Positions 16,769 through 60,368 of a DNA stretch of 64,000 nt are shown here, in pieces. The DNA comes from Niveispirillum irakense DSM 11586 (GTDB taxonomy: Bacteria > Pseudomonadota > Alphaproteobacteria > Azospirillales > Azospirillaceae). Every line of letters starts with the position of its first letter. Position 1 is the stretch's first letter. The DNA lies in NCBI RefSeq assembly GCF_000429645.1, contig NZ_KE386933.1, positions 496,001 to 560,000 of the forward strand. The letters are read 5' to 3'. Both the position numbers and the translations under genes were made by a program. The notes beneath the pieces were generated by a model, which worked only from the letters and a program-made list of their open reading frames with translations, ran no database searches and had not been told where the DNA came from.

Positions 16769-17107
16769 TCAGCCCAAAGTGGCGAGAGCTGCGGCACGGT
16801 CGGGCTGGATGGCGAAGATGGTGGAGAAGCCGCTGATATCGAACACTTCGCGCACATTGGGATGCAGGGCGCACAGCACCAGCTTCACCTGCCGGGCCTT
16901 GGCCTGTTTTGCCGCTTTCAGCAGGATGCGCAAGCCCGCGCTGCTGACATAATCCAGCCCGCCCATATCAATGATCGTGGCCGGCGCGCCAGCGATGGCG
17001 GCTGTCAGGGGGGCGTCAAGGGCGACGCTGGTCGTGCCGTCCAGCCGGCCATTCAGGCCGACCAGATTGGTGCTGCCGACCTGTTCCAATGCAATATCCA
17101 TCGCCAT
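16769..17107 (-). CDS. STAS-domain anti-sigma factor antagonist (SpoIIAA/RsbV type)
   Basis: A 112-residue single STAS domain. The phosphorylation loop DYVSSAGLR places the target serine at 55 or 56. Such proteins bind the kinase in unphosphorylated form, releasing its partner, and are reset by a PP2C phosphatase. ATG 17107 follows AGGGA with 7-base spacing and overlaps the kinase stop by one base; GTG 17110 is possible. It is the last gene of the leftward five-gene operon. The phosphatase at 23896 is the obvious partner. Confidence 0.92.
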   Translation of the reverse strand: MAMDIALEQVGSTNLVGLNGRLDGTTSVALDAPLTAAIAGAPATIIDMGGLDYVSSAGLRILLKAAKQAKARQVKLVLCALHPNVREVFDISGFSTIFAIQPDRAAALATLG

Positions 17108-18855
17108 CACTCGTTCCCTGTTGCGTCGTTTTTCCAGCCGGCCACGCGCTGGCCGAAACGGAAATGATTGTGATCGTCCTGCCGGCGATAGGACACCATG
17201 TCCATCATCGTCCGGACCATATGCACGCCCAGCCCGCCAATCTCCCGCTCCTCAAGATCGGCATCGATATCGACCGGCGGGCGGGCCAGCGGATCGAAGG
17301 GAGGGCCGTCATCCACGATCTCGGCCTGGAGCATGATATCGCTCAGCACCAGGGATACCTTGATCTCCCGCCCGGCGGCCCCGTCCAGACCATGCTGGAT
17401 GACATTGGTCAGCAACTCATCGAAACAGAGATTGAACTGGAAGGTCGGGCGGGGTGGGATGGCGTTATGGTCGCAGAAGGCCTCCACCGCGTCAGCCAGC
17501 CGGGGGATTTCCTCCACCCGGCTGTCCAGCACCATGTCGAGGCGGGCGAGTTCGTCCATTCCAACAGGTCTCCGGTTCAGGGCGGTGGTGGAGGCGGGGT
17601 TGGTGATCAACGCATAGACGCCGACACAACGCCGTTGAAGGATGGTTGAGAGATCGGCAGCCCGCGCTTCCAGCGCCACATCGACGAACCGTTCCATATA
17701 TTGGTGCAGCAGTCTTTCGCCGCCGCCGGTCAGCAGGCCGACGGAAAGAATAGCCTCATCCGCTGGGATATTCTCCTGAATCTTGCCAGCGCGCAGTTCC
17801 ACCAGGCTGGTTGCTGCGCTGTCATGATCCCAACTGACGACAAGCAGCCGCTCCCCGGTCATGCTGCTGGCCATCTCTGCCAAGACCTGGGCCGGCGGGG
17901 AGCCTTCGGCCAACCGTGCGGCCAGAAGGTCGCCGATGGCACCGGCGCGGATCGCGCGGTCCAGCGGATCGGCCAGTTGCACGCTGCCCAGCAGAAGATG
18001 GCTGCGGCCGGGCTGGCGCACCAGACGCAGGATCTGGCCGGCATCCCCACCCACCCGCTGCACGATCAGGCGCCGCCCGCCGCAGAAGGTGTCGATATCG
18101 GGCTGGGTTGCCTCTACCAATGTGCCCACAAGGTCATGCACGGTGCGGAACTGTTCATTTTCTATGCATAGCCGTTCTGACCGGGCGCGGCGGGCCCGCA
18201 GCACGCTGTGCATGGTGCGCAGCGCATCGTCCAGATCCTCGATCTCCGTGATGCCGGTCAGGTCCGGGTCGCTGTCCAGCCGGTCGCTGGACATCAGGCC
18301 CATACGGCGCTTCAGCGCCCGCAGGCGCCCAGCGATGCGACCGGCCACCAGCAGTGCCGCCACCAGCCCCAGCAGGGCGCCTGCGGCCAGAAGTCCGGCT
18401 GCAACCATGTGCAGCCGTTGTTCTTCTGCTCCCTGCCGCGCGGTGGAAAGCTCCAGCACCAGCCAGCCGCCATCGGCAAGCGGTGCGATGGCCGTGGCCA
18501 CCGTGTCTACCGTGAGATCATCGGGCAGACTTATGCCCACCGTCGTGGGGGCGCTTGGCGGGGATGGGGTTATGGATGTGCCGATGGACAGCGTTTGCCC
18601 GCCGGCCGCATCAAACAGACGCAGTCCGACAATCTCATTGCGTGCCGCAATATCGGCCAGTGTTGCTTCCGGTGGGTTGCTGCTGGATGGCACCAGTTCC
18701 GCCAGTGCCACGGCGGCAGCGCGCGCCTGTTCGTTCAGGCCCCATATAGCCTCGGTTCGGTGGCCCAGCAGGACCAGCCCGGCACCCAGGCCGGACAGGA
18801 CCAGCAGCAGCGGGACAAACAGAAGGATGATGCGGGTGCGGAGCGACAGGATCAT
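17107..18855 (-). CDS. Membrane anti-sigma-type serine kinase (sensor, HAMP, degenerate PP2C-like region, HATPase)
   Basis: A 582-residue protein. Transmembrane helices lie near 9-30 and 150-172 around a small periplasmic sensor; a HAMP-like region follows. Residues 440-582 are an RsbW/SpoIIAB-type ATPase with N-box FDELLTNVIQHG (478-489), DDG (515-517) and GGLGVHMV (540-547). The segment 250-420 keeps VGGD (268-271) and then HLLLGSVQLADPLDRAI, which parallels GGDLYDYF...HLVFIVGDVSGKGVPAAL of the neighbour phosphatase but without the second metal Asp; I read it as a dead PP2C domain. It overlaps both neighbours. It probably phosphorylates the STAS protein. No sigma factor is nearby. Confidence 0.85.
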   Translation of the reverse strand: MILSLRTRIILLFVPLLLVLSGLGAGLVLLGHRTEAIWGLNEQARAAAVALAELVPSSSNPPEATLADIAARNEIVGLRLFDAAGGQTLSIGTSITPSPPSAPTTVGISLPDDLTVDTVATAIAPLADGGWLVLELSTARQGAEEQRLHMVAAGLLAAGALLGLVAALLVAGRIAGRLRALKRRMGLMSSDRLDSDPDLTGITEIEDLDDALRTMHSVLRARRARSERLCIENEQFRTVHDLVGTLVEATQPDIDTFCGGRRLIVQRVGGDAGQILRLVRQPGRSHLLLGSVQLADPLDRAIRAGAIGDLLAARLAEGSPPAQVLAEMASSMTGERLLVVSWDHDSAATSLVELRAGKIQENIPADEAILSVGLLTGGGERLLHQYMERFVDVALEARAADLSTILQRRCVGVYALITNPASTTALNRRPVGMDELARLDMVLDSRVEEIPRLADAVEAFCDHNAIPPRPTFQFNLCFDELLTNVIQHGLDGAAGREIKVSLVLSDIMLQAEIVDDGPPFDPLARPPVDIDADLEEREIGGLGVHMVRTMMDMVSYRRQDDHNHFRFGQRVAGWKNDATGNE

Positions 18856-19244
18856 GGCTGCGTACTCACCAGATCACCGGCCGTGTCGAAAAAGGCCACC
18901 AGCAGCCCCGGGCATTCATTGATTATGGTGAAGAAATGCCCGCGCGCGATGGCGAGCCCGGCGGCACCCTGCACCGGATCAGCCAGCAGGGGTGCGGGTA
19001 CACCCCGTTCAAACAGCAGCGCGGCGGCCCCGATCACCGGCGGCAGCCGCTGGCCCGCCATGATCACCGCCCCTTCACGTATGATCAGCAGATGGCGCAG
19101 TTCGTCTTCCGGGGTGGCGATGGTCTCCCCCGGTCGCCAGGACATCTCGCGGGAGATGTCGGCGATCACGGCCAGCTCGTCGCTGCGCAGCCGGTCGAAG
19201 GGTGGTGTCATGCGAAGCTGGAACAGCCGGTCAATCGCGCTCAT
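18852..19244 (-). CDS. Small cNMP-binding-like protein
   Basis: A 130-residue protein resembling one cyclic-nucleotide-binding fold: FDRLRSDELAVIADISREMSWRPGETI, then LLIIREGAVIMAG. The phosphate-binding cassette (GE...R-A-A/T) is not visible, so classical cAMP binding is doubtful. It has no DNA-binding domain. Start and stop overlap the flanking genes by four bases (ATGA), placing it in the partner-switching operon between two membrane proteins. It resembles the C-terminal domain of the 20551-23709 protein and may work as a small regulatory subunit. Confidence 0.6.
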   Translation of the reverse strand: MSAIDRLFQLRMTPPFDRLRSDELAVIADISREMSWRPGETIATPEDELRHLLIIREGAVIMAGQRLPPVIGAAALLFERGVPAPLLADPVQGAAGLAIARGHFFTIINECPGLLVAFFDTAGDLVSTQP

Positions 19245-20554
19245 GCCGACAACTCCGCCTGTGGCCGGAAGACCATGCTGCGTCCTTCACCCGTCAGGCA
19301 CAGGGACTGGCCGGGTGGCAGCGTCAGGTGATGTTCACCCGGCGCCATCCGGGTGCCATCCGGCAGCGCAAGCGTGATGGTATTGCGCAATGTCAGGCTT
19401 GTGCCATCCAGGGCGAACAGGGCCAGCAACCCGTGCCCCAGCAGCGGCGCTGTCCGTTGCAGGGCCAGCCTGGGCAGGGGCGGGCTGGTGGCGGCCAGAT
19501 GGGTCACTTGCAGGGCGCGGATGCGGGCGCGCAGCGGATCGGCTTCCGCCATGGCGATCCAGGCAATCACCCCGCCTTTGCCCAGCGGGACGGCCCCATC
19601 CAGCGAGGGGTGGCTGAGCGTGACCAGCGGTGTGCCACCGCCGGGCCGGCCATTCAGCAGGCGCAGCAGGCCGCTTGTACGCCGTTCCCACTCTGTCCGG
19701 TGATCGGCGGCCTCCGTCCGCGCCATCTCCTGCCGCACGGTTTCGCGCATATTGTTGAAAGCATGGGCCAGATCAGCCAGTTCGCGCGCCCCGCGTGGCG
19801 GCACGCTGACGGATGTTTCCCCCGCCGCCAGACGGAAGCCAGCCAGCTTCATACCAGCCAGGGGGCCGGCGATGCGCCGCGCGGCCAGTACCGCGATCCC
19901 CACAGCCAGCAGCAGGGAAGCCGCGCCGATCAGTCCGGCGCTGACAAGGGCCACCCGCAATTTTCGATTGATCGCAGAGATATCCACGTCGGCCCCGGCC
20001 ATGGCCTCGGCCCGTCGGCCCTGCCGGGGCAAAGGCACAAAAGCTGTCTTGATCAGGCCCCATTGCTCCCATTGCTGGATATCGGTGATGTAGGGCTGAC
20101 CGGTATCCAGGACAGACAGGATATTACGGGCATCGCTTTCCGGCAGGCTGTCCATGGTGCCTGGCGGGGAATGGTTGTCGTCCGTATTGGCATCCAGCAC
20201 GTAAACGATATCCAGCCCGCCCATTGGGGCCTGGGTATAAAGGTAGGTTAATGCCAGTTGCTGTTTGATCCGGCGCAGCGGGGCGACCGCTTGCTGGAAG
20301 GCTTCCGTCTGTTCCAGCGCGTCCCCCGGTTCCCCGGCATGGATGGCGGCCAGAAGATCGCGATGCACCTGCGGATCAATCAGGGCAGCGGTAACGGTGC
20401 CGACAGCGGTCAGCTTGGCATCAAAGCCGGCGATGATGCTGCGGCGCATTTCTCCATAAGCGGTGATGGCGACGGCCAGTGTGGTCAGGACCAGCGCCGG
20501 CACCAGGGCCAGCAGCAAAAGCCCCTGAAGGCTGAAGCGTGCGCCCCGGTTCAT
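19241..20554 (-). CDS. Membrane sensor with HAMP and a degenerate PP2C-like C-terminus
   Basis: A 437-residue protein. Helix 10-32, a periplasmic domain (33-200), helix 203-226 and a HAMP region match the layout of the phosphatase at 23896. Shared sensor landmarks are TYLYTQ versus TYVYTY and GLIKTAFVPL versus GTFRTVFVPV. The C-terminus GHGLLALFALDG...APGEHHLTLPPGQSLCLTGEG can be laid along the end of the phosphatase domain (GHDAPIVLSADG...LSPGDTLLLYTDG), but TDG has become TGE and the metal-binding first half is missing. It is probably a pseudophosphatase or decoy. ATGA overlaps occur at both ends. Confidence 0.65.
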   Translation of the reverse strand: MNRGARFSLQGLLLLALVPALVLTTLAVAITAYGEMRRSIIAGFDAKLTAVGTVTAALIDPQVHRDLLAAIHAGEPGDALEQTEAFQQAVAPLRRIKQQLALTYLYTQAPMGGLDIVYVLDANTDDNHSPPGTMDSLPESDARNILSVLDTGQPYITDIQQWEQWGLIKTAFVPLPRQGRRAEAMAGADVDISAINRKLRVALVSAGLIGAASLLLAVGIAVLAARRIAGPLAGMKLAGFRLAAGETSVSVPPRGARELADLAHAFNNMRETVRQEMARTEAADHRTEWERRTSGLLRLLNGRPGGGTPLVTLSHPSLDGAVPLGKGGVIAWIAMAEADPLRARIRALQVTHLAATSPPLPRLALQRTAPLLGHGLLALFALDGTSLTLRNTITLALPDGTRMAPGEHHLTLPPGQSLCLTGEGRSMVFRPQAELSA

Positions 20555-23500
20555 GCCGCCACCCTGTGCCGGAACAGGCGGATGGCCAGCCGGGGATAAG
20601 CCTTTGCCGATTCAAGGATGGCCTGGGCGGGGATCACCAGCACCTCGCCCGCCGCCATGAAGGCCTCGCTTTCATAGCGGGCGCTAGTCAGTGCCTCCAT
20701 GCCGATCAGGCTGGGTGTATCATGGTCACTTACCTGTCCGTCCGGGGCCGTTACGCGTGCGTGGCCCCGCAATAGAAGGAACAGGCTGTCCGCCCGTTCA
20801 CCGGGCTCGAACAGGGAGGTGTCGTCGATCTCGCATTGTTCGCTGGCCCCGACAATGATCAGCAGGTCACGCAAGGGCGAAGACTGGAAAAGATCGCACT
20901 GCGCCAGTGCCGCCAGCTTCGCCACGGGTGTCAGGCGTTGATTGCTGGCTTCCAGATGCAAAAGGTCCAGCACTGTCTGCTGGGCCACATCGTGCCGGCC
21001 GGGGCGCAGGCGGCTGCGCAGGTCGGGCAGGGCCTTTTCCCGCTCCATATCCCACAAGGCCTGGGCGGCGGCTGCTGCTTCCAGGGGGACATCGCTGTTC
21101 AGGGCGGTCCGGAAGATGCTGTCGGGCCTATTTGCCCCTTTCAGACGGTGGTAATTTGCCAGACGGGCGGCCTGGGCCTGCGCATCGCTCAAGCCCCGGA
21201 TCAGGGTGAAGACCTCGTAATCCGCGGCCTGTTCCAGCGCCTCCAGCGCGTTGCCGCGCGCCTTGGGATTGCTGGATTGCAACGTTGCCATCAGCAGTTC
21301 GAAATTGGGCAGGCCGCCGCCCAGGGTCAACAGCAGCAACGCAAATTCCAGCCCATCGCGCTGCTGGTCCTGATAGACCCGGCGCAGCATGGCGCTGCCG
21401 GTGGAGCCGGCAATTTCCGGGACCAGCGATCCGTCCCGTTCTGCGGCATAGGCCCGGCGCAGTTCCGCCGCCGGCAGCCCGCCTGCCGTGGCGGCGAACT
21501 GGGCGGGCGACAGCCGGGCCAGCGCGCGGGCAGCCACGGCCCGGCTGGAAAAGCCATAATGCCGGTCGCGCAACACCCGCACCAGAACCGGGATGGCCGC
21601 TGTGCCCAACCCGGCAGCCGCCTGTTCCATCGCGCGGCGCTCGAACGGGGTCAGCAGATCGGCCAGTTCCAGCAAAGGCAGCAGCACGGCTGGGTCCCTG
21701 GTCGACGCCAGCACCTCAATCCCCACCGACCGGGCCTCCGGCGATGCCCGGCGGATGGCATTGAGGATATGACCGGTCAGGTGCATCGTCTTCAGGGCGC
21801 CCATTTCCTGCAAGGCGACCAGGGCGCCATGGCGCACCTCCGGGGCCGCGTCGGTCAGGAAATCGGCGATCAGGTGGGCGAACCTGTCTTCCTCCAGCCG
21901 CCCCAGCGCCTGGACAGCGGCCAGTCTCTCCGCCTCGTCGCCATGGCGCAGTTCCGTCAACCGGTCCAGCGCCAGCTTGCAATTGGCAGGGTCGCTGCTG
22001 TGCCAGAGGGCAATCACGGCGGCGGCGGCCATATCGGGTTCCATCAGCCGGTCGCGCAGCGCTTCAACCCGGCCGCGATCCAGCAATTTATGCACGCCAA
22101 GTTCCGCCACCATGGCCGCCTGCGACCAGAGCCGGGCCAGGGTAGGGTCATCTGCCAGGCGCAGCACGGCGCGGCCGGCCCCGTCCTCCAGTGCGCGGCG
22201 CAGCACCGGTCGCGCTGCCACCTGTCCCCTGGGGCCGGCGACGGCAATGAAATGCAGCAAGGCCTTCAGGTCAGCCAATGTCCAGGCGCCCGGCTGGATC
22301 AGCATGTCCAGGGCGGCGATCCGGACATCTTCAGGGTTGTCGGCGTCCAGCGCCAGGGCGCGCAGGGTCAGTGATTCCTGGTCATTGCTGAGGCCGCGCC
22401 GGGGATTGCCGAAATCCAGCCAGCCCCGGCGCAGATTATTGACCATGGACTGGCGATAGGCGTTCCGTAGCGCCAGGACCAGCAGGATCAGCGCCAGCGC
22501 CAGCAGGATACCGACGGCGGAAAGCTGTTCCGGGCTCAGGTCGTCTTGCAGAAGCAGCAGGATGACACCGGCAAAGGCGGTGACGAACGGCTCGCACAGC
22601 CCCTCCACGACGGTGCGGACCTGCTTGCGGTACCGTTCGTCGATGGCGTTGAACAGGAAGTTGAAATTATTGAAATCAATGGCCGGCACTATGCCCTGAA
22701 GCAGCAGGAAGCCCAGCAATGCCGGGCCCAGGCCGAAATCGCCGAAATAATAGGTGAAGATCAACACATAGGTGGCGGGAACGATCAAGGCCACCGACCG
22801 CACGCCCAGCCGCAGGACCAGACGGTTGAAGATGAAAAGATTGATGAGCAAGGTCAGCGCACTGGCCGTGCCGTAAAGCTGACCGAACATCCGTGCCAGT
22901 TCCTGTTCGTCCCGCCCTTGGGCAAAGACGGACAGATATTGGAACTCGTTGATATTGCCCAGCAGCAGGGACAGCAGAAAGACGCCGACCACAATCGGGA
23001 TGTAGCGGGACCGGCGTAGCCCTTCCCGGATGGTGGCCAGCGTGCCACCGGCGGCTTCTTCTTCGGCACCCGGATCGTCACTTTCGCTCAACCGCACCCA
23101 GCGCTGCCGGATCAGCAGCACCAGCGGCAGGGTCATCAGCGCCAGTCCGGCCCATACCAGATAAAGGGAAGCGATGGATAAGCTGCCGGCCAGCATTGTC
23201 ACGGCGCCGCCACCGGCAATGCCGCCAATGGCGGCGCCCGCGCTTAACAGCGCAAACAGCCGCTTGCCGTCCTGCACATCGAAATAATCGTCAATAAAAT
23301 TCCAGTAAAGCGTATAGAGGCCGATGAACCAGACTGCCGCGTAAATCCGCACGGCATAAGACAGGCCATCCGCCAGCAGCGGCGGCAAATGGCTGGCATT
23401 GGTCAGCCCCAGCCAAGCCAGCACCCCGCCGCCCACCAGCACGCCCAAGGCCAGCATCAAGGCCCCATCCGCGCCAAACCGCCCGGATATATAGGCCATG

Positions 23501-23709
23501 GCCGGCGTATAGAGCAGCATGGCAACGGCTGTCACCATATAGACATAGGGCAGGCTGGCGGCCCCGGCCGCTGTCAGGAACAGGGCATCGCCCGCACTCA
23601 TTCCGATGCTGAGGCCGGCCTGCAGCAGAAATGAAAGGGCGGCGAACGGAATGACCTTTGCCAGGTCGCGCCGTTCCAGTCGCAATGCGCGCAGGACCGT
23701 GTTGATCAT
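20551..23709 (-). CDS. NTT/ATP-ADP-translocase-like transporter fused to HEAT repeats and cNMP-like domain
   Basis: About 1052 residues. The first 430 hold eleven to twelve transmembrane helices of an MFS-like, Npt1/Npt2-type nucleotide-transporter fold (including LYTLYWNFIDDYFDVQDGKR and AIDFNNFNFLFNAIDERYRKQ). Residues about 460-930 are alpha-helical HEAT-type repeats (such as DAAPEVRHGALVALQEMGAL). The last 100 residues are a cNMP-like barrel (LFEPGERADSLFLLLRGHARV) without a clear phosphate cassette. ATG 23709 is preferred over the TTG at 23760. It is first in the leftward operon. Whether it transports or only senses nucleotides is unknown. Confidence 0.75.
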   Translation of the reverse strand: MINTVLRALRLERRDLAKVIPFAALSFLLQAGLSIGMSAGDALFLTAAGAASLPYVYMVTAVAMLLYTPAMAYISGRFGADGALMLALGVLVGGGVLAWLGLTNASHLPPLLADGLSYAVRIYAAVWFIGLYTLYWNFIDDYFDVQDGKRLFALLSAGAAIGGIAGGGAVTMLAGSLSIASLYLVWAGLALMTLPLVLLIRQRWVRLSESDDPGAEEEAAGGTLATIREGLRRSRYIPIVVGVFLLSLLLGNINEFQYLSVFAQGRDEQELARMFGQLYGTASALTLLINLFIFNRLVLRLGVRSVALIVPATYVLIFTYYFGDFGLGPALLGFLLLQGIVPAIDFNNFNFLFNAIDERYRKQVRTVVEGLCEPFVTAFAGVILLLLQDDLSPEQLSAVGILLALALILLVLALRNAYRQSMVNNLRRGWLDFGNPRRGLSNDQESLTLRALALDADNPEDVRIAALDMLIQPGAWTLADLKALLHFIAVAGPRGQVAARPVLRRALEDGAGRAVLRLADDPTLARLWSQAAMVAELGVHKLLDRGRVEALRDRLMEPDMAAAAVIALWHSSDPANCKLALDRLTELRHGDEAERLAAVQALGRLEEDRFAHLIADFLTDAAPEVRHGALVALQEMGALKTMHLTGHILNAIRRASPEARSVGIEVLASTRDPAVLLPLLELADLLTPFERRAMEQAAAGLGTAAIPVLVRVLRDRHYGFSSRAVAARALARLSPAQFAATAGGLPAAELRRAYAAERDGSLVPEIAGSTGSAMLRRVYQDQQRDGLEFALLLLTLGGGLPNFELLMATLQSSNPKARGNALEALEQAADYEVFTLIRGLSDAQAQAARLANYHRLKGANRPDSIFRTALNSDVPLEAAAAAQALWDMEREKALPDLRSRLRPGRHDVAQQTVLDLLHLEASNQRLTPVAKLAALAQCDLFQSSPLRDLLIIVGASEQCEIDDTSLFEPGERADSLFLLLRGHARVTAPDGQVSDHDTPSLIGMEALTSARYESEAFMAAGEVLVIPAQAILESAKAYPRLAIRLFRHRVAA

Positions 23710-23895
23710 GGGCCCTAGGTCATGGAGCCGCAGGATTGCGGATGGAGGACAGTTGTACAACGACGTATGACCACGCCATCGTCATTTTGCAAGCGTGCCG
23801 ATTTTACGGCATGATGCCCACCTCTTTCAGGGGGAAACAGACGTGGGTATGGCTAATACCAGTTCGGACCTGTCGCGAAGCCGGCAGGTGTCGGC
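23710..23895. promoter_or_regulatory. Divergent control region of the partner-switching operons
   Basis: These 186 bases separate the two divergent operons and must hold both promoters. They contain a perfect 10-base palindrome GTTGTACAAC (23752-23761) and a short inverted repeat TGCCG-ATTTTA-CGGCA (23797-23812). Either could bind a regulator. I could not assign -35/-10 boxes with confidence. Confidence 0.45.
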
Positions 23896-25551
23896 ATGAG
23901 ACTTGGTCTGGGCATACGGGGCAAGCTGCTGTTGCTGCTTTTTGTTGCCAGCATTGCCACTTCCGCCAGCTACACATGGTTCACCTATCATCGTGAACGC
24001 AATGCCGTACTGGCGGGTATTGATGCCCGCCTGCTGGCAGCCGCCCGCGCGGTGGAGCTTTATACCGGGGTTGATTATCACGACCGTATCGACGGGGCAG
24101 GTTCGGTTCCGCTAGCCCAGTATCAGGCCATGATGCAGCGCCTGAACACCTATGCCCGGCAGACCGGCTTTACCTACGTTTATACCTATATGCAGTTTGA
24201 CGGGAATATCCGCACCACCGCGACCAATGCCACGGAGGAGGAACTGGCGGACGGCACGTATGACCGTTTCTTCCACCATTACGACACGGCGTCTCCTGTC
24301 CTTTTCCGCGCCTTCCAGACGGGGCAGATCCAGTTCGAGGATCTGGTGGACAGCTACGGCACTTTCCGCACTGTTTTCGTGCCCGTCACCACCCCATCGG
24401 GCAAAGTGTTTGTCGCGGGCGCCGACCTGAGCATCGATTTTGTTGAACAGCAGATGAGAGCGGCGCTGCGGGGCGCCCTGCTGATCGGCGGGGCCGGCTT
24501 CGTGCTGATGATGGTGCTCGGCCATTTCGTGATTTCCCGCATCATTCAGCCCCTGACGGTCTTGACGGGCAAGACCAAGCTGCTGGTGGGGGACAGTATC
24601 GACCGGGATATCGCCGACCAGATCCGCGCCATCATGGCGCGCCGCCGGGATGAGGTGGGGGCGCTTGCCGCTGCTTTGACGGAGATGATCCGCCGCCTGG
24701 ATCTTTATGTCATCCAGTTGCAGGAAACCACGGCGGCGAAGGAGCGGGTGGAGGGCGAGTTATCAGCGGCCCGTGAAATCCAGCTTGGCCTGCTGCCCTG
24801 CCGGGAACCGCCCTTTCCCCAGCATCCCGAGTTTGAGCTGCATGGCCTGATGGAGCCGGCCAAGGCGGTAGGCGGCGACCTTTATGATTATTTCATGGTA
24901 GGTGAGGACCATCTGGTCTTCATCGTGGGGGACGTGTCGGGCAAGGGCGTGCCAGCGGCTTTGTTCATGGCCGTGGCCAAGACCCTGTTCAAAGGCAATT
25001 CCGCGTCGGCCCCGCCGCCGGCCCCGCCCGACATCGCCTCTGTGGTCGATCTGTTGAACCGGCAGCTTTGCGATGAAAACCCGCAGGAACTGTTCATCAC
25101 CGTCTGTGCCGGCATCCTGAATATCCGCACGGGTCAGGTGGATTATTGCGATGGCGGCCATGACGCCCCCATCGTGCTTTCCGCTGACGGACAGATAAAG
25201 CGGGTGGACAAGGTGCCCGGTCTGGTCCTGGGCGCCATGGATGATTATGACTATCAGGCGGGCCGCATCATGCTGTCGCCGGGTGACACGCTGCTGCTTT
25301 ATACTGACGGCATCACCGAGGCGATGGACCCGACGGGCCGCACCTTCACCTATGAAGGGCTGCTGGAACGGTTGATGGCGATGCCCGCGGACCTGACGCC
25401 GCGCGGCGTCAACGGCTGGGTCCGGGACAGTGTCGCCGCCTTTGCGGAAGGGGCTGAACAGTCCGACGACCTGACATTGCTGACAATCCGTTATCTGGGT
25501 GACGCGCAGCCCTCGTCTGTGGTGGAGAGCCGGGAGAGTGTTTTTGCCTGA
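23896..25551 (+). CDS. Membrane sensor-HAMP-SpoIIE (PP2C) serine phosphatase
   Basis: A 551-residue protein. Helix 8-27, periplasmic sensor 28-190, helix 193-215, HAMP to about 270, a short coiled linker, then a PP2C/SpoIIE domain. The metal-binding acids are present: GGDLYD (D328, D331), VGDVSGKG (D346), TDG (D471) and SDD (524-525), so it should be active. It would dephosphorylate the STAS protein encoded at 16769, reversing the kinase at 17107. It is first in the rightward operon; the next gene starts before it ends. Confidence 0.9.
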   Translation: MRLGLGIRGKLLLLLFVASIATSASYTWFTYHRERNAVLAGIDARLLAAARAVELYTGVDYHDRIDGAGSVPLAQYQAMMQRLNTYARQTGFTYVYTYMQFDGNIRTTATNATEEELADGTYDRFFHHYDTASPVLFRAFQTGQIQFEDLVDSYGTFRTVFVPVTTPSGKVFVAGADLSIDFVEQQMRAALRGALLIGGAGFVLMMVLGHFVISRIIQPLTVLTGKTKLLVGDSIDRDIADQIRAIMARRRDEVGALAAALTEMIRRLDLYVIQLQETTAAKERVEGELSAAREIQLGLLPCREPPFPQHPEFELHGLMEPAKAVGGDLYDYFMVGEDHLVFIVGDVSGKGVPAALFMAVAKTLFKGNSASAPPPAPPDIASVVDLLNRQLCDENPQELFITVCAGILNIRTGQVDYCDGGHDAPIVLSADGQIKRVDKVPGLVLGAMDDYDYQAGRIMLSPGDTLLLYTDGITEAMDPTGRTFTYEGLLERLMAMPADLTPRGVNGWVRDSVAAFAEGAEQSDDLTLLTIRYLGDAQPSSVVESRESVFA

Positions 25552-26359
25552 CACACAATCCTTCAGTGCCGATATCACGGCCGAATTCGCCCGCCTTTAT
25601 CCTGCGGCCTGGGCCCGGCAGGCGATCCCCGCAGATGAACTGGCGCTGCTGGCGCAAGCGGCAATGGGGAATGGCAACCAGTTCCGCCGTTTCCTGAAAC
25701 GCCGCCTGCATGGTGACCCGGTGGCCTATATCCTGGGCCATGTCACTTTCGCCGGCCGTCGCTTCACCATGGACCGGCGCGCCTATGTCACCGATCCGGA
25801 GACGGTGCATCTGGTGGGGGCCGTGCGGCAATGGGCCAGCCCCCGACAGGGGCCCCTCTATGCGGCGGAAGTGGGGGTAGGCGCGGGCGCCCTTGCCATC
25901 ACTCTGTTGCTGGAGGTGCCGGACCTGCGCATCACCGGTCTGGAACTGGATGACGCCGCTGCCGCCCTGTGCCGGGAAAATGCCGCCCATCATGGCGTGG
26001 CTTTGGATGTGGTGGAAAGCGACCTGTTCGCCGCCTGGGGCGACCGGCCGGCCCCGGACCTGATCTATGGCGACCTGCCTTGGGGCGATGATACGACTTT
26101 GTATGGTCAGGATCGGGATGCCGATCATTATCATCGTATGCCGCCGACCACGGCCTTCCCCTTGTCTGGCCGGACAGGCGCGCATCAGGATCTGATAATG
26201 GCGGTGCGCGACCGGGGGTGGGCTGCCCATATCCTGTTAAATTGCGGCACCTTGCCGGATGGCGATATCGCTGATGTCGTAGCGGCAGCCAGGGACATGC
26301 AAGCCCGCTTGCTGTCGCCAGCGGCCACGGCGCGCATTCTGCACCTTTTCCCGCTGTGA
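25538..26359 (+). CDS. PrmC/HemK-like class I SAM methyltransferase
   Basis: About 273 residues. An N-terminal helical region (RRFLKRRLHGDPVAYILGHVTFAGRRF) resembles PrmC's substrate domain; AEVGVGAGALAITLLLEVPDLRITGLELD is the SAM-binding motif. The catalytic motif, normally NPPY in PrmC, reads GDLPWGDD, closer to the DPPW type, so the substrate may not be release-factor glutamine. Start uncertain: GTG 25538 overlaps the phosphatase; TTG 25544 has better spacing from GGGAGAG; GTG 25499 is also open. It is coupled to the SET gene by a GTGA overlap. Confidence 0.75.
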   Translation: MFLPDTQSFSADITAEFARLYPAAWARQAIPADELALLAQAAMGNGNQFRRFLKRRLHGDPVAYILGHVTFAGRRFTMDRRAYVTDPETVHLVGAVRQWASPRQGPLYAAEVGVGAGALAITLLLEVPDLRITGLELDDAAAALCRENAAHHGVALDVVESDLFAAWGDRPAPDLIYGDLPWGDDTTLYGQDRDADHYHRMPPTTAFPLSGRTGAHQDLIMAVRDRGWAAHILLNCGTLPDGDIADVVAAARDMQARLLSPAATARILHLFPL

Positions 26360-27000
26360 CCTTTGAGCAAGGTGAAGGAAAGGATAAATTTTCTCTCAAT
26401 GCGCACTTGCAAAAAACAGTTTCAGACGCAAGGCTTACCCCATCCGAACTGTTTTGGTTCTGTCCCGATGGGTTGCCTGTGATGCTTCTGTCCCAAGCCC
26501 GGCGTGCCGCACCCATTGACACCTCTCCAGCTACGGCGGATCGCAGTGTGGCCCGGCCCCTTTATCCGATGGGATTCGTGCTGGGGGCAGGATATCCGAC
26601 CGATGCCGATTGCATCGTTCACCGGCAGGACGCGGGCAAGGGCCTGGGGGTTTATGCCCGCCGCGCGTTCCAGCGGGGCCAGCTTATCTGTCGTATCAGC
26701 GGATCGATCACGCATGAGGTGATGCAGCACACCTTGCAGATCAGCCCCGGTGTGCATCTGTATGATCCGTTCTTCACCGGCTATCTGCTGCATGCCTGCG
26801 ACCCGAACTGTTTTCTCGATATGCAGCGGTTCGAGCTGTGGGCCCTGAAGGATATCGCGCCGGCGGAGGCGATGACGATGGATTATGCCAGCACGGAGGA
26901 TGTGCTGTTCAAGCAGTTCCGCTGCCTGTGCGGCTCCGCCAATTGCCGGGATTGGATCACGGGCCGGCGGGAAGCGCCGCAGCGGCCGGCATCGGAATAA
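26356..27000 (+). CDS. SET-domain protein lysine methyltransferase
   Basis: A 214-residue protein. Residues about 95-205 form a SET domain: GKGLGVYARRAFQRGQLI, the pseudoknot region HACDPNC, MDYAST, and a post-SET zinc motif CLCGSANC. Such enzymes methylate lysines in proteins; bacterial targets are mostly unknown. GTG 26356 overlaps the upstream stop (GTGA), suggesting coupling. The first 50 residues match nothing I recognise, and an internal ATG at 26482 is possible. The decarboxylase-like gene begins 14 bases later. Confidence 0.82.
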   Translation: MTFEQGEGKDKFSLNAHLQKTVSDARLTPSELFWFCPDGLPVMLLSQARRAAPIDTSPATADRSVARPLYPMGFVLGAGYPTDADCIVHRQDAGKGLGVYARRAFQRGQLICRISGSITHEVMQHTLQISPGVHLYDPFFTGYLLHACDPNCFLDMQRFELWALKDIAPAEAMTMDYASTEDVLFKQFRCLCGSANCRDWITGRREAPQRPASE

Positions 27001-27013
27001 ACGGGATATCGTG

Positions 27014-28234
27014 ATGGTGGATTTCTGGTGGGCGCGGCCGGACCTGCGCTATGTCGGCGGGCGGCTGCATCTGGCCGGCACCGATCTGGCGCAGGCCGCG
27101 GCGGCTGCCGGGGGTCCGGCCTTTTTCTATTCCGGTGCGCGGGTGCTGGATAATCTGCGCCGGCTGCGCGCGGCCCTGGACAGTACCGGGCTGGATGGGG
27201 CCATCCGCTATGCCATGAAGGCCAACCGCTTCGCCCCGTTGCTGACCTGGATGAAACTGTCAGGCCTGTGCGGCATCGACGCCTGCTCCCCGGCAGAAGT
27301 GCGCCATGCCGTGCAATCCGGTTTCCGCACGGGGGATATCTCTTATACCGCTACCTCGGTTTCCGATGCCGATCTGGCGGTGCTGGCGCGCCAGCCCGAT
27401 ATCTGGATCAATGCCGACAGCTTGTCCATGATCCGCCGGCTGGGCCGGCTGATGCCGGGCCGTGCCATCGGCATCCGGGTCAATCCGGCGCTGGGCGTGG
27501 GGTATGGGGAGAACCAGTTGCTGCGCTATAGCGGCGACCGGACCTCCAAATTCGGCATCTATCGCGAACAGTTCCCCGAGGCCTTGGCCCTGGCGCGGGA
27601 GGTCGGGCTCTCCGTGGAGGGCATCCATTTCCATGTCGGCTGTGGCTACCTGAACGGGCAGTTGGAAGCCTGGGGTCAGGTGCTGCGGGAATGCCGCTGG
27701 TTTCTGGAACAGGTGGACAGGCCGCGTCTGGTCAATCTCGGCGGTGGCCTGGGTGTGCCACATGTCGCGACGGACCAGCCGCTGGACCTGGACCGTTGGG
27801 CCGGCTTGATCCGGAATGCTTTTGCGGGCCTGGGTGTGGCCGTGTGGGTGGAGCCGGGGGATTACATCGTCAAGGATGCCGGCTTGCTGATGCTGCAGGT
27901 GACCCTGGCGGAGCGTAAGCGCAACACCCTGTTCTATGGCGTGGATGGCGGTTTCAATCTGGCGATCGAGCCGGCCTTCTACAGCCTGCCATGTGAGCCG
28001 GTGCCGGCCGTGCTCGGCGCGGAGCCGGCCATTGCCTGGGCACCCGATGCCCTGACACCTGCCACCATCGCCGGCAATATCAACGAGGCGCTGGACCTTT
28101 TCGCCCAGGATGTGCCGCTGCCGGCGATGCGGGAAGGCGATTATCTCGCCTTGCTGAATGCCGGTGGTTATGCCGCCGCCATGGGGTCGAACCATTGCAT
28201 GCGCGGCACGGCGACTGAGCATCTTTTGGTGTAA
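27014..28234 (+). CDS. Type III PLP-dependent decarboxylase-like protein (LysA/ODC fold) lacking the catalytic Cys
   Basis: A 406-residue protein. The PLP lysine is in RYAMKAN (K69); HFHVGCG, NLGGGLG (241-247) and EPGDY (280-284) bind the cofactor phosphate and ring. In LysA the second active-site loop reads like GPxCESGD; here it is GNINEALD, with N357 where Cys should be. The end GGYAAAMGSN fits the LysA GAYxxxMSSN motif. It may decarboxylate an unusual substrate, act as a racemase-like enzyme, or be non-catalytic. Last gene of the rightward operon. ATG 27014 chosen; GTG 27011 is adjacent. Confidence 0.82.
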   Translation: MVDFWWARPDLRYVGGRLHLAGTDLAQAAAAAGGPAFFYSGARVLDNLRRLRAALDSTGLDGAIRYAMKANRFAPLLTWMKLSGLCGIDACSPAEVRHAVQSGFRTGDISYTATSVSDADLAVLARQPDIWINADSLSMIRRLGRLMPGRAIGIRVNPALGVGYGENQLLRYSGDRTSKFGIYREQFPEALALAREVGLSVEGIHFHVGCGYLNGQLEAWGQVLRECRWFLEQVDRPRLVNLGGGLGVPHVATDQPLDLDRWAGLIRNAFAGLGVAVWVEPGDYIVKDAGLLMLQVTLAERKRNTLFYGVDGGFNLAIEPAFYSLPCEPVPAVLGAEPAIAWAPDALTPATIAGNINEALDLFAQDVPLPAMREGDYLALLNAGGYAAAMGSNHCMRGTATEHLLV

Positions 28235-33934: not shown

Positions 33935-36900
33935 TTGAGGGGCGGATATTCTCTCCTTGGCCGTACAGCGGCCATTGCATTGCTGGCTGGCGCAGCGCCG
34001 ATGACGATGGCCGGGGCGGCCTTCGCACAGGCTGCCAGCGGCAATGCGTCGGATATGATGGAAGAGATCATCGTTACCGGCGTTCGTGCATCGCAGCAGC
34101 GCTCTGTCGATCTGAAGCGCAATGAAACCGCGATGGTTGATGCGATCAGCTCCGAAGATATCGGCAAGCTGCCCGACGTCACCATTGCTGACGCGCTGCA
34201 GCGTGTCTCCGGTATCCAGATCCGCCGCGAGGCGGGCGAGGGCACCACGGTGAACGTGCGCGGCCTGCCGCAGGTCATCACCATGCTGAATGGTGAACAA
34301 TACCTGTCCGCCGGCAATCTGGGTGAGGCGCGGCCGAACCTGAGCGATGTGCCCGCACAGTTGATGAATGCCGTTGTCGTCTACAAGACGACAGAGACGA
34401 CCAATGCCCTGTCCGGCATTTCCGGCACCATTGATCTGCGCACCCGTCGTCCATCCGATATGCCTTCGGGCCTGACGATTACCGGTGCCGCCGAAGGGCA
34501 GACCGGCGAGGATACGAAGGAAAAGGATTATCTGGCCAACGGTCTGGTATCCTGGCGCAATGACCGGGTCGGCGTGCTTGTGTCCGGTGCTGGCAGCAAG
34601 GCCAATCTGGGCAATAATTATTCCGGCGTCGCCGGTGGCCTGTCCGGCAACAATGACTGGGGCGGGTCCGCGCCGACCAACTTCATCTCTCCGCATGGCT
34701 TTGAAAGCTTCAAGCGTGAGGTGGAGCGCGAGCGCCTGTCCCTCTCCGGTGCGTTCGAGGCCGATCTGGGTGAAGGTTTCACCTTCGTCGCGGAAGGCTT
34801 CTACACCAAGATGGACGAGTTCAACCGCTCGGCCGGTATCAACATCTCCAACCGCTGGTCCAGCGATGCCTATGGTATCTGGACCATCCCGACCGCCACG
34901 ACGCCCGTCGGCACGGGCAACTGGGTCTCGGTGGATGAGTATGATATTGACGCCTGGTGGGTGAACTCCTTCAGCGTCAACCGCGTCAACAAGTCGGAAT
35001 CGAAGAACTATAACGCCGAGCTGAATTACGATAATGGCGGGCCGTTCACGTTTGAATTCCGCGCCATGCGATCGGATGCCAATCGTCTGTCCATGAACGG
35101 TCAGGCCCAGGGCGATTTGTCCAACTGGGAATACGGCCCCAACCGTTTCAACCTGTTCCGCGATGCCAATGACCGCACCCGCGGTACCTTCTACCCCGCC
35201 GCCATCGCGTCGAAATTCGACCCGTCCCGCTATTCCAACGGGATCGTTGGCAGCCAGGGCGGCCGGTATGTCGACCCGAACCCGCTGGGCTATGGCGAAA
35301 ACCCGCGTCTGCACTATGATATTTCCGGTGGCCATCCGGTCTGGTCCGGCTTTGACCGGCCGATTTCCGGTGGGCTGGGTGCGGGCAAGTCGCTGACCGA
35401 TTACATGGCCAACCAGGACAGCTACGCCATCGGCGCCTTCTCTTCCGAAGGCAATAACGAGGCGAAGTCGGACCTGTCTGTCTATCGTGCTGATGGTCAT
35501 TATGATTTCGAGGAGCCGCTGTTCGGCTTCTTGAACAAGGTGGATGTGGGTATCCGCCGTTCCGACCGCTCTGTCTCGATCGAACAGTTCCACCTGTTCT
35601 CCACCTTCTACAAGGGCCAGGGCGTGAATGCCGCCGGCCAGCCGAACACGTCCGGTTGTTCGGCCCAGTGGAAGGCCATCGACGTGGTGATGAACCAGAA
35701 TCAGTGCCAGGCGGGTGAGTTTGTGCGCGATCCGGTGACGGGTCTGCCGGTGTTCCAGGGCTATACGATCAATGCGCCGACGCGCCTGGACACTTATAAC
35801 AATGTCATCTGGGTGGATGATCTTGGTTCCATCACCTCGGGCATTCCGGGCTTCTGGGCCATCGATCCGCGTGACTTCGACGATCCGGCGGCCTTCCACC
35901 GCAAGGTCTTCGGCGGGGCGGAGCGGGTCATCGTGCCCGGCCAGTCCTATGATGTGGACCTGTGGGAAGATAGCGGCTACTTCAATACCCACTTCGCCTA
36001 TGGGGCTCTGTCCGGTACGGCTGGCCTGAAGATCATCCGCACGGAATTGCAGGTCCGCCAGAACATCACGGGCGAGACCAAGAATTACGGCGACACCAAC
36101 AATGATGATGGCGATGTCACCAGCCGCCGCAGCTATTACGACTATCTGCCGGCGGTGAATGCCAGCTACGACATCAATGACAATCTCCGCCTGCGCTTCG
36201 GCTATTCCAAGACCATGCAGCCGCTGGATCTGCTGAAATATGGCGGTGCGTTGAAGATCAACACGGCGGACGATCCCACCTTGGGCATTCGTATCGTCAC
36301 CAGCGCGGAATCGCAGGGCAACCCGGATCTCGATCCGTGGCGGTCGGATAACTGGGACGCGGCGATTGAATATTATATCGGCCGGGCCAGCATGCTGAAC
36401 CTTGCCGTGTTCCGCCTGAATATCGACAGCTATGTCGTAACCCGCACCACCCAGGACGGTCAGTTCGCCGACCAGGACGGCATCATCCGCCGCACTGTGC
36501 CGGTGACCCGCCCGCAGCAGGGTGAAGGCGGCAAGGTGGAAGGCATTGAAGTGGGCGCCAAGCTGTCCTTCAAGGACTTCCTGGATGAGAACAGCTTCTT
36601 CTCCAACTTCGGTGTGGACACCAACTACACCTATTCGCCCAGCGAGCAGACGCTGACGAATGGGACCAAGGTGGCGTTCAACGATAATTCCAAGCATCAG
36701 TTCAACCTGATCGCCTGGTATCAGGATGAGAAGTTCCAGACCCGCGTCGCTTATAACTTCCGTAGCAAGCGTCTGCAGGACGTGTTCACGAACCAGTTCC
36801 CGGTCTACCAGGAATCCTCACAATATGTGGACGTGAATGTCAGCTACGACGTGACCGACAACATCACTGTCTATGCCAATGGATCCAACGTCCTTGGTGA

Positions 36901-37003
36901 GAAGGAAGATTACGTCGTCCAGTTCGCGCCCGGCATCAAGCAATATGCCTGGCAGAACGAATATGAGCCCCGCTACACGCTGGGCGCTCGCTTCCGGTGG
37001 TAA
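33935..37003 (+). CDS. TonB-dependent outer-membrane receptor
   Basis: A 1022-residue protein. The start is TTG 33935, decided by the strong AGGGAGGA just upstream. A signal peptide ends near GAAFAQA; the TonB box is in EEIIVTGVRAS; the plug spans about residues 55-170 (IADALQRVSGIQIRR, NVRGL); a 22-strand barrel ends in the aromatic FRW. The size and TonB-box type are those of carbohydrate-class receptors in alphaproteobacteria and xanthomonads. Two halogenase-family genes follow and a GH3 gene is divergent, so the ligand may be a glycoside or aromatic conjugate. Confidence 0.92.
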   Translation: MRGGYSLLGRTAAIALLAGAAPMTMAGAAFAQAASGNASDMMEEIIVTGVRASQQRSVDLKRNETAMVDAISSEDIGKLPDVTIADALQRVSGIQIRREAGEGTTVNVRGLPQVITMLNGEQYLSAGNLGEARPNLSDVPAQLMNAVVVYKTTETTNALSGISGTIDLRTRRPSDMPSGLTITGAAEGQTGEDTKEKDYLANGLVSWRNDRVGVLVSGAGSKANLGNNYSGVAGGLSGNNDWGGSAPTNFISPHGFESFKREVERERLSLSGAFEADLGEGFTFVAEGFYTKMDEFNRSAGINISNRWSSDAYGIWTIPTATTPVGTGNWVSVDEYDIDAWWVNSFSVNRVNKSESKNYNAELNYDNGGPFTFEFRAMRSDANRLSMNGQAQGDLSNWEYGPNRFNLFRDANDRTRGTFYPAAIASKFDPSRYSNGIVGSQGGRYVDPNPLGYGENPRLHYDISGGHPVWSGFDRPISGGLGAGKSLTDYMANQDSYAIGAFSSEGNNEAKSDLSVYRADGHYDFEEPLFGFLNKVDVGIRRSDRSVSIEQFHLFSTFYKGQGVNAAGQPNTSGCSAQWKAIDVVMNQNQCQAGEFVRDPVTGLPVFQGYTINAPTRLDTYNNVIWVDDLGSITSGIPGFWAIDPRDFDDPAAFHRKVFGGAERVIVPGQSYDVDLWEDSGYFNTHFAYGALSGTAGLKIIRTELQVRQNITGETKNYGDTNNDDGDVTSRRSYYDYLPAVNASYDINDNLRLRFGYSKTMQPLDLLKYGGALKINTADDPTLGIRIVTSAESQGNPDLDPWRSDNWDAAIEYYIGRASMLNLAVFRLNIDSYVVTRTTQDGQFADQDGIIRRTVPVTRPQQGEGGKVEGIEVGAKLSFKDFLDENSFFSNFGVDTNYTYSPSEQTLTNGTKVAFNDNSKHQFNLIAWYQDEKFQTRVAYNFRSKRLQDVFTNQFPVYQESSQYVDVNVSYDVTDNITVYANGSNVLGEKEDYVVQFAPGIKQYAWQNEYEPRYTLGARFRW

Positions 37004-37103: not shown

Positions 37104-38621
37104 ATGGATAATCGCATACGCGATCTGGTCATTGTCGGCGGTGGTACTGCCGGCTGGATGACAGCGGCGGCCTTGGCCGACCATTTCCGGGGCAGCGGGC
37201 TTGCCATCACTCTGATCGAAAGCTCGGCCATCGGCACCATCGGGGTGGGGGAAGCGACGATCCCCACCATCCGCCGCTTCTATCAGGCGTTGGGTCTGCG
37301 TGACCTGGATGTGCTGAAGGCAACCCATGGCACGGTGAAACTGGGCATCCGTTTTGATGGCTGGACGGGCGACGGGGCCGGTTTCCTCCATCCGTTTGGC
37401 GTTTATGGCCAGGATTTGCGGGGTATCCCGTTCCATCAATACTGGCTGCGGCTGAACAAGGCGGGCCATGCGACCGATCTTGGCGATTATTCGCTGGCCG
37501 TTGCCCTGGCCCAGGCCGGGCGTTTCACCCTGCCATCGCCCAATCCCCCCTCCACCCTGTCGGTCTTTGACTGGGCGCTGCATTTCGATGCCGGCCTGTT
37601 TGCCCAGATGATGCGGCAGGTGGCCGAACAGCGCGGTGTGCGCCGGATCGATGCCCGGATCGAGAAGGTGGAGCGGCGGGGCGAGGATGGCCACATCACC
37701 CATCTGCTGCTGGATGATGGCCGCCATATCGCCGGTGATCTTTTTGTCGACTGTTCCGGCTTTCAGGGCCTGTTGATCGAAGGGGCGATGCAGGCGGGCT
37801 ACGAGGATTGGAGCCAGTGGCTGCTCTGTGATCGGGCGCTGGCCGCACAGGGCCATGCCCTGACCCCGCCCCCGCCCTTCACCCGCGTGACGGCGCAGAA
37901 GGCCGGCTGGCGCTGGACCATCCCGCTTCAGCACCGCACCGGCCATGGCTATGTCTATTCCAGCCGCCATATCAGCGACGCGGATGCCGAGGCGGAATTG
38001 CTGGGGGCCATCGGTCCGGATCTGAAGATGGCGCCGCGCCGTATCGCCTTCACCCCTGGCCGCCGGTCCCAGGCATGGAAGGGGAATTGCGTCGCTATCG
38101 GCCTGTCATCGGGCTTTCTGGAGCCGCTGGAATCCACCTCCATCGCCCTGATCGAAACGGGGATCGAGAAGCTGAAGCAGCTTTTCCCCCGCCAGGGCAT
38201 TGATCCCTATCTGGTGGATGAGTTCAACGACTGGTCCCGGCGGGAGATGGAGCGGGTGCGCGACTTCATCATCCTGCATTACTGGCTGAACCAACGGGGC
38301 GAGGATTTCTGGCGGGATTGCCGCGCCATCGACCTGCCGGACACGCTGCGCCACAAGGTGGAACTTTTCCGCCGCCGGGGGCATCTGGTGCGCTATCGCT
38401 GGGAGATGTTCCAGCCCGCAAGCTGGCTGGCCATCTTCGCCGGTTTCGGTTTCCTGCCGGAAGAAAGCGATCCTGCCCTTGAGGGGGCAGACATCGCCGG
38501 CCTGCGCCGGGGCCTGGATGGCATGCGCCAGGCCGTGGCCCAGGCGGTTGCCGATTGCCCGACCCATCAGGAATTCATCGACCATTATGCGCGGGTGGAA
38601 ATGCCCGGCGGCAGACAATAA
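37104..38621 (+). CDS. Flavin-dependent tryptophan-halogenase family protein, first copy
   Basis: A 505-residue protein. FAD-binding GGGTAGWM (12-19); the catalytic lysine position K79 in GTVKLGIRF (the same number as in PrnA/RebH); the halogenase signature WRWTIP (269-274); and the Glu of FLEPLEST (E340). All residues needed for flavin-dependent halogenation are thus present. In TonB-receptor neighbourhoods such enzymes are often orphan halogenases of unknown or indole-like substrate. FADH2 must come from a reductase not seen here. The second copy follows after 23 bases. Confidence 0.88.
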   Translation: MDNRIRDLVIVGGGTAGWMTAAALADHFRGSGLAITLIESSAIGTIGVGEATIPTIRRFYQALGLRDLDVLKATHGTVKLGIRFDGWTGDGAGFLHPFGVYGQDLRGIPFHQYWLRLNKAGHATDLGDYSLAVALAQAGRFTLPSPNPPSTLSVFDWALHFDAGLFAQMMRQVAEQRGVRRIDARIEKVERRGEDGHITHLLLDDGRHIAGDLFVDCSGFQGLLIEGAMQAGYEDWSQWLLCDRALAAQGHALTPPPPFTRVTAQKAGWRWTIPLQHRTGHGYVYSSRHISDADAEAELLGAIGPDLKMAPRRIAFTPGRRSQAWKGNCVAIGLSSGFLEPLESTSIALIETGIEKLKQLFPRQGIDPYLVDEFNDWSRREMERVRDFIILHYWLNQRGEDFWRDCRAIDLPDTLRHKVELFRRRGHLVRYRWEMFQPASWLAIFAGFGFLPEESDPALEGADIAGLRRGLDGMRQAVAQAVADCPTHQEFIDHYARVEMPGGRQ

Positions 38622-38644
38622 TAAATCAGGGGAAGGAAAAGCCG

Positions 38645-54394: not shown

Positions 54395-54547
54395 GGCGGG
54401 GCTCCTCTGGCGGGGGAGGGAATTGGTGTGCCCGTTAGGCTTGGGCGGCGCGGGCTGGCGATTGGCGGAGTGGCGTTAAGGATCAGGCTGTCGGCTGCCG
54501 AGGGGCGGGCACTGGCCTGGGCCACGGTCTTCGGGCGGATCGTCGGG

Positions 54548-55828: not shown

Positions 55829-55843
55829 GTTCTCGCCGCCTCC

Positions 55844-57678: not shown

Positions 57679-57917
57679 AATACCAGACTCCCCCTCGACC
57701 ACGCCTTCGTCAGGTGTGGCCGCCCCAACCGGACTTCCTGTTACAAAAGTCGCTACCGCAAGATTTGGTGTGGTGACGTCCCGTTCGTCCCACAAAATCC
57801 GGTGTAAGCGACGATTCGTGCCGCCGCAAGCGCCAATCTGCCGCCCTTTTAAAAAAGGCGAGGGCGATGAACCGAAAGCAAGAGCGACGGAGTCGTGGCC
57901 GGGGCTTATGGGATATG

Positions 57918-60274: not shown

Positions 60275-60368
60275 GGCTTACACTCCAACCAAAGGACGCG
60301 GATGGCGGTCCGCGGAAAATGCACAAAGGCGCGTGGGGCGGGTTGATGGCCCGCCCGGCGGCATCACG

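Follow-up and report, generated by a model that had tools for sequence, protein, structure and literature searches.

A block of nine genes at positions 16769-28234 of a 64,000-nucleotide window of the Niveispirillum irakense DSM 11586 genome (NZ_KE386933.1) contains eight genes that form a conserved unit; the ninth, encoding a PrmC-like methyltransferase, lies outside it. We consider it likely that the region works as one unit, in which a receptor-driven partner switch and an NTT-HEAT membrane protein are linked to a two-enzyme sulfonium module. The two enzymes, a SET protein and a pyridoxal 5'-phosphate (PLP) enzyme, are predicted, as the most likely route, to convert methionine to S-methylmethionine and then to the amine of dimethylsulfoniopropionate (DMSP-amine). 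The unit is a real and conserved combination of known parts that is undescribed in the accessible literature; searches for a switch, an NTT protein and sulfonium enzymes together found nothing, subscription papers being outside their coverage. The genome is placed in the Azospirillaceae, in the same genus as Azospirillum sp. RU38E in the grouping used. An initial annotation, made from the DNA letters alone, had described nine genes here, and all nine open reading frames were found where it had placed them, mostly with matching coordinates and with domains that broadly agreed with its guesses.

Eight of the nine genes form a conserved unit

GTDB genomes were scanned with an NTT profile built from four sequences, which yielded 44 loci, 31 of them alphaproteobacterial. 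A tblastn search with the NTT protein added a copy carried on a large Sphingomonas plasmid (S. paeninsulae), in which the unit is rearranged and lacks only the PrmC-like gene, giving 32 alphaproteobacterial loci. In the fetched DNA, 28 of the 32 were complete, with genes for the PP2C, NTT, HAMP, cNMP-like, sensor, STAS, HATPase, SET and PLP proteins; carriers of the complete unit include Sphingomonadales and Phenylobacterium. Gene order in these 28 loci is unlike that of the window, and the linkage is tight across two orders. The four incomplete loci were those of RU38E, Aerophototrophica and two Phenylobacterium metagenome-assembled genomes (MAGs), the last two reaching contig ends. Among 199 Caulobacteraceae genomes, the NTT gene occurred in eight and the PLP gene in seven, all seven falling within the eight and having the PLP gene 4-6 kb from the NTT gene (hypergeometric probability 3.6e-12, not corrected for kinship). 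With 28 of 32 loci complete and this co-occurrence in Caulobacteraceae, clustering of the unit exceeds chance, and the SET and PLP genes are linked to the phosphatase gene in related genomes rather than found mostly apart from it, as the grouping in the initial annotation had implied. The PrmC-like gene was present only in three Azospirillaceae loci and one Opitutales locus and was thereby ruled out as a core member. A phage origin was also set aside, since scanning a viral collection with the NTT profile yielded no relative.

The loci from Verrucomicrobia, Kiritimatiellae, a deltaproteobacterial MAG and Leptolyngbya have the NTT, HAMP and cNMP-like genes in common, usually with the sensor too; PP2C is present in three of them. 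A relative of the PLP enzyme adjoins the core in one Verrucomicrobiia genome, where it is 53% identical to the window protein.

The SET and PLP proteins are predicted to turn methionine into a sulfonium compound

The SET protein (26482..27000, plus strand) has as its closest solved relative BurB (9l4t, E 1.5e-44), followed by a histone methyltransferase at 1.5e-6. BurB is a proven methionine S-methyltransferase acting on free methionine (PMC12542666, PMC7496086). Residues matching BurB H72, T73, H93, Y124 and V130 are retained; the two pockets differ at R42K, A44L, M132F, R133K and H138L, and the methionine contacts in BurB are made by the main chain (PMC12542666). By sequence, the protein is of the BurB type, a predicted methionine S-methyltransferase. 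SET genes also stand beside distant NTT-HEAT genes of Azospirillaceae relatives; these lack the BurB LDM/TED motifs and were set aside as BurB-type candidates. Same-family relatives have a second NTT-HEAT lineage, of about 900 residues, in loci L018-L024 (e.g. L024 8728-14438), directly downstream of a different SET gene that is not of the BurB type. A receptor gene follows the NTT-HEAT gene in L018 and L024; the one in L024 is a sensor histidine kinase, succeeded by a response-regulator-like gene.

The adjoining PLP gene (27014..28234, plus strand) encodes a protein scoring 198.3 bits against the LysA model TIGR01048, under its cut-off of 297.9. Its clade splits from each genome's own LysA at 100/100 in the tree, and the LysA motifs CE(S/T)GD and EPGR are lacking, GNINEALD and EPGD standing in their place; cut-off, tree and motifs rule out identification as a LysA paralogue. 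Each of the four genomes checked has a separate LysA-like gene. The motifs EPGD, GN(I/V)NEALD and (N/D)HC(M/L)R are common to the PLP protein and the decarboxylases of bur-like and mmtN clusters. Identity is 56-57% to two copies from other orders (S. paeninsulae and Phenylobacterium) and 50-52% to decarboxylases of clusters in Eleftheria terrae, Rhodovulum and Rhizobium lusitanum. The first of these, a bur-like cluster on an E. terrae plasmid (NZ_CP106953.1, 180000-214000), combines a BurB-like SET gene and a PLP decarboxylase with an aminotransferase, an aldehyde dehydrogenase and a polyketide synthase (PKS). The Rhodovulum P5 plasmid cluster holds a related decarboxylase together with an aminotransferase, a class I methyltransferase domain and a dehydrogenase, and in R. 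lusitanum the related decarboxylase adjoins MmtN (E 3.9e-105 to 7vvv). A similar aminotransferase occurs in each of the three clusters. BurI and S-methylmethionine decarboxylase were nearest to diaminopimelate decarboxylase among plant candidates (PMC11464771). By comparison with these cluster decarboxylases, the PLP enzyme is most likely of the BurI type and a predicted S-methylmethionine decarboxylase. The similarity of the SET protein to BurB, together with the clade, motifs and LysA separation of the PLP enzyme, makes methionine to S-methylmethionine to DMSP-amine the most likely assignment for the pair. DMSP has generally described roles as osmolyte and antioxidant; we do not assume these for the hosts of the unit, which are by name mostly soil and freshwater bacteria.

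The partner-switching set is complete and its receptors are related

The initial annotation had recognized a full partner-switching set, and each component carries its functional motifs. The membrane receptor with a C-terminal SpoIIE/PP2C phosphatase (23896..25551, plus strand; SpoIIE 9.1e-43) is of the active type, with intact metal-binding Asp motifs; GDVSGKG, TDG.sEA and Q.DD are kept in 34 orthologues. The STAS protein (16769..17110, minus strand; Pfam STAS 3.2e-18), of the anti-anti-sigma type, scores 81.9 against TIGR00377 (cut-off 53.45), and its phosphoacceptor motif YVSSAGLR is kept in 28 orthologues. The RsbW-type HATPase kinase of the GHKL class (17107..18855, minus strand; HATPase_c_2 2.4e-20) has conserved boxes, namely the N-box DE..N, DDG..FDP and GGLG. 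It is fused to a membrane sensor consisting of two transmembrane (TM) segments, a periplasmic domain, a weak HAMP and then a middle domain; a single gene encodes both sensor and HATPase in the window and in RU38E, against two genes in the remaining alphaproteobacterial loci, including those of Sphingomonadales (S. paeninsulae), Phenylobacterium and Aerophototrophica. No sigma factor was recognized among the conserved neighbour families of the unit, in agreement with the initial annotation.

The HAMP receptor (19241..20554, minus strand; HAMP 1.5e-8) consists of two TM segments, a Cache/PAS-like periplasmic domain, HAMP, a coiled coil and a C-terminal domain. In its AlphaFold model (predicted local distance difference test, pLDDT, 87), the periplasmic domain resembles the sensor domains of DctB and CitA with Z scores of 13-14. 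An N-terminal receptor half is common to the HAMP and PP2C proteins (hhalign E 7.7e-62), which align over their full length at probability 100; the sensor aligns with both at probability 95-98 and is, by these profile alignments, a more distant relative of the two. Given this kinship, related signals are probably sensed by the active phosphatase and by at least one other receptor akin to it. The C-terminal domain of the HAMP protein may be a degenerate PP2C, as suggested by the full-length alignment and by how strands and helices follow one another in the model. Taken alone, this domain gave a weak profile match (probability 22.1), and fold searches with the HAMP model returned no phosphatase among the matches listed, which cover only residues 15-219. 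The middle domain of the sensor was rejected as a pseudo-phosphatase on a domain-only profile comparison at probability 0.1 (95.5 at full length).

A small cNMP (cyclic nucleotide monophosphate)-domain-like protein (18852..19244, minus strand) is encoded in 42 loci and has a conserved C-terminal H.FT..E.P motif; its sequence gave no sign of nucleotide binding. In Pfam PF00027, it scores 13.5 and the tail of the NTT protein 24.0, both under the cut-off of 27.5.

The NTT protein combines a translocator fold with HEAT repeats

The gene at 20551..23709 (minus strand, ATG at 23709) encodes an NTT-fold transporter domain (residues 1-428), HEAT repeats (443-936; HEAT_2 2e-9) and a C-terminal cNMP-like barrel (957-1027). 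The NTT-like membrane protein of the initial annotation has the ATP/ADP-translocator fold in the AlphaFold model (pLDDT 88.9), where 414 residues align with AtNTT1 (9j3m) at Z 40.9 and a root mean square deviation of 2.8. By sequence family models, it scores 14.2 bits against TIGR00769 (cut-off 387.2) and is barely above the cut-off for Pfam TLC (21.7 versus 21.0). Within the transporter bundle, K149, R150 and E369 are invariant and E255 is near-invariant. In the Sphingomonas copy, the first HEAT stretch is largely missing, as is a great part of the cNMP barrel.

A proposed mechanism and its alternatives

From conservation, homology, motifs and the predicted folds of two proteins, we infer a course of events that extends to enzyme activities, switch direction, target, transported substrate and physiological role. 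An extracytoplasmic small molecule would bind the Cache-type receptors; the HATPase would phosphorylate the STAS protein and PP2C would dephosphorylate it, and STAS protein, once free, would sequester the HATPase (or a different partner), with a change in the target as the result. Modulation of this complex may come from the HAMP receptor and the cNMP-like protein. The target would most likely lie inside the unit, being either the NTT-HEAT protein, with its HEAT repeats as a docking surface, or the supply of S-methylmethionine and DMSP-amine. The SET protein would make S-methylmethionine from methionine and S-adenosylmethionine (SAM), and the PLP enzyme would convert it to DMSP-amine, which may be processed further to DMSP by a housekeeping aminotransferase and dehydrogenase; what the NTT domain transports may be this product or else a nucleotide. 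As a tentative extension, possible rather than probable, terrestrial and freshwater bacteria would possess a sigma-free switch acting directly on both an NTT-family transporter and a pathway from methionine to sulfonium compounds; by sensing an extracellular ligand, it would tune how much S-methylmethionine, DMSP-amine or DMSP is made or exported, and related versions in other phyla would be coupled to other methyltransferase or nonribosomal peptide synthetase (NRPS) modules.

Several observations weigh against this integrated reading. Some SAM-contacting residues of BurB are changed in the SET protein (R42K, R133K and H138L). Dedicated BurD/BurE aminotransferase and dehydrogenase genes are absent from the unit and the best aminotransferase in the window genome is a generic 40% match, which makes the end product uncertain; burD and burE mutants of Burkholderia thailandensis were still product-forming, credited by the authors to housekeeping enzymes. 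The STAS gene of RU38E lies about 60 kb from the unit. In Aerophototrophica, the SET-PLP pair and the switch are on different contigs, so the two modules can separate. Neither SET nor PLP genes were seen beside the Kiritimatiellae or Leptolyngbya cores in the DNA covered, and the switch must therefore function without them too.

These cores and the Aerophototrophica contigs, together with the SET- or PLP-type genes that Eleftheria, Rhizobium and Rhodovulum carry in the absence of the switch, would also fit two independent co-travelling modules: an NTT/receptor/partner-switch module with another output, such as a remote sigma or anti-sigma factor, and, as a mere neighbour, a sulfonium pathway under transcription-only control. 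We regard this as unlikely, because 28 of the 32 loci are tightly linked over two orders in a gene order unlike that of the window, the two modules are patchily co-present in Caulobacteraceae, and a PLP relative adjoins the core in the Verrucomicrobiia genome as well. It is likewise unlikely, in our estimate, that the SET and PLP enzymes make a building block for a specialized metabolite, as DMSP is for malleicyprol-type assembly lines, through a pathway controlled by the switch. Their relatives do occur in PKS and NRPS clusters, NRPS/adenylation-domain fragments adjoin the core in Opitutaceae and in the Verrucomicrobiia genome, and STAS paralogues lie by a PKS in RU38E and near an adenylation-domain match in the window genome; however, assembly-line genes do not recur beside the alphaproteobacterial units.

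The PrmC-like gene (25538..26359, plus strand, frame open from 25499) encodes a protein that scores 91 bits against TIGR03534 (cut-off 199) and has D(L/P)PW where PrmC has NPPY; a genuine PrmC of 266 bits is encoded elsewhere in the window genome. By sequence search, its nearest solved relatives include a PrmC-like one labelled an apramycin-pathway N-methyltransferase, and our guess is that the small molecule may receive a further methyl group from it. SET domains are often lysine methyltransferases and PrmC methylates release factors. The initial annotation had assigned protein methylation to the locus, but methylation of proteins by the SET and PrmC-like proteins within a post-translational control circuit is very improbable, since the small-molecule enzyme BurB is the closest solved relative by 38 orders of E-value, the adjoining decarboxylase is of the BurI type, and the PrmC-like protein lacks NPPY and falls far under the PrmC cut-off in a genome with its own PrmC.

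Gene boundaries and neighbouring genes

All four minus-strand junctions overlap as initially described, three through ATGA and one through GTGATG at the STAS start, and so do the PP2C and PrmC-like genes at 25538. The GTGA at 26356, from which the SET frame is open, is doubtful as the SET start, because conservation is lacking over the first ~45 residues encoded from there, and in RU38E, the closest relative, stop codons interrupt this frame ahead of the SET start; a start near 26482, ~120 bp past the PrmC-like gene as in RU38E, is more likely. The 186-bp divergent region (23710..23895) presumably holds promoters for both arms. Promoter and terminator scans were uninformative, the promoter scan giving nothing clearly above chance; an Rfam search of the region, including the 186-bp stretch, gave zero matches.

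A class III cyclase-like protein is encoded in 27 loci with alphaproteobacterial units (e.g. L015 7357-8157, convergent to the PP2C gene). It keeps the metal-binding Asp motifs, apparently has Asp for the catalytic Asn, and has zero Pfam matches; it was not found in the window genome or Aerophototrophica, and RU38E has only a 48-residue fragment with stops. A TorF/Gcw_chp porin-like protein is encoded near the unit in 21 loci (e.g. L015 6696-7343). The two neighbours hint at nucleotide signalling and outer-membrane passage. STAS and HATPase paralogues lie near a PKS in RU38E (L125 6770-7710), and in the window genome a STAS paralogue (L126 7407-7736) lies near an MsbA-like ATP-binding cassette transporter, a NodU-like protein and the adenylation-domain match. 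In Opitutaceae/Verrucomicrobia (L048 16862-23107, L079 16848-19265), EctB-type transaminase and NRPS genes adjoin the core. Elsewhere in the window, two adjacent genes at 37104-40150 look by sequence like FAD-dependent tryptophan halogenases, downstream of a TonB-type receptor gene (33935-37003), and 52655-63972 has the appearance of a cell-division/cell-wall cluster (ftsZ, ftsA, ddl, murB, murC, murG, ftsW, murD).

Comparison with known systems

If the integrated reading is true, BurB-type S-methylation, so far reported from a single Burkholderia species, would also occur in several orders of Alphaproteobacteria from soil and fresh water, NTT-HEAT-cNBD proteins would gain a concrete functional context, and a partner switch would have a transporter or a metabolic step, rather than transcription, as its possible output. 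A 2026 review still gives BurB as reported from B. thailandensis only (PMC13360808). The DMSP methylation pathway of that species (BurB, BurI, BurD and BurE; PMC7496086, PMC12542666) resembles the unit in its BurB-type SET protein and diaminopimelate decarboxylase-like PLP decarboxylase, encoded adjacently in the window; the unit differs in lacking BurD/BurE and a BurA-type assembly line and in having a partner switch, receptors and an NTT-HEAT protein. MmtN-type DMSP clusters likewise place a PLP decarboxylase of the same clade beside a methionine S-methyltransferase, but MmtN, a class I methyltransferase, is not related to SET, and the parts of the source consulted report no partner switch (PMC9135737). 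NTT-HEAT-cNBD fusions with the same domain order, and a cNBD gene following NTT-HEAT, were noted by Major et al. (2017; PMC5381601), in whose consulted sections their function is uncharacterized and no link to partner switching or sulfonium enzymes is reported. The SpoIIE/SpoIIAB/SpoIIAA and RsbU/RsbW/RsbV switches share with the unit a PP2C phosphatase, a HATPase kinase and a STAS antagonist; the unit differs from them in having no sigma factor and, in the window, a kinase fused to a receptor, and it adds a PP2C-related HAMP receptor, an NTT protein and metabolic enzymes.

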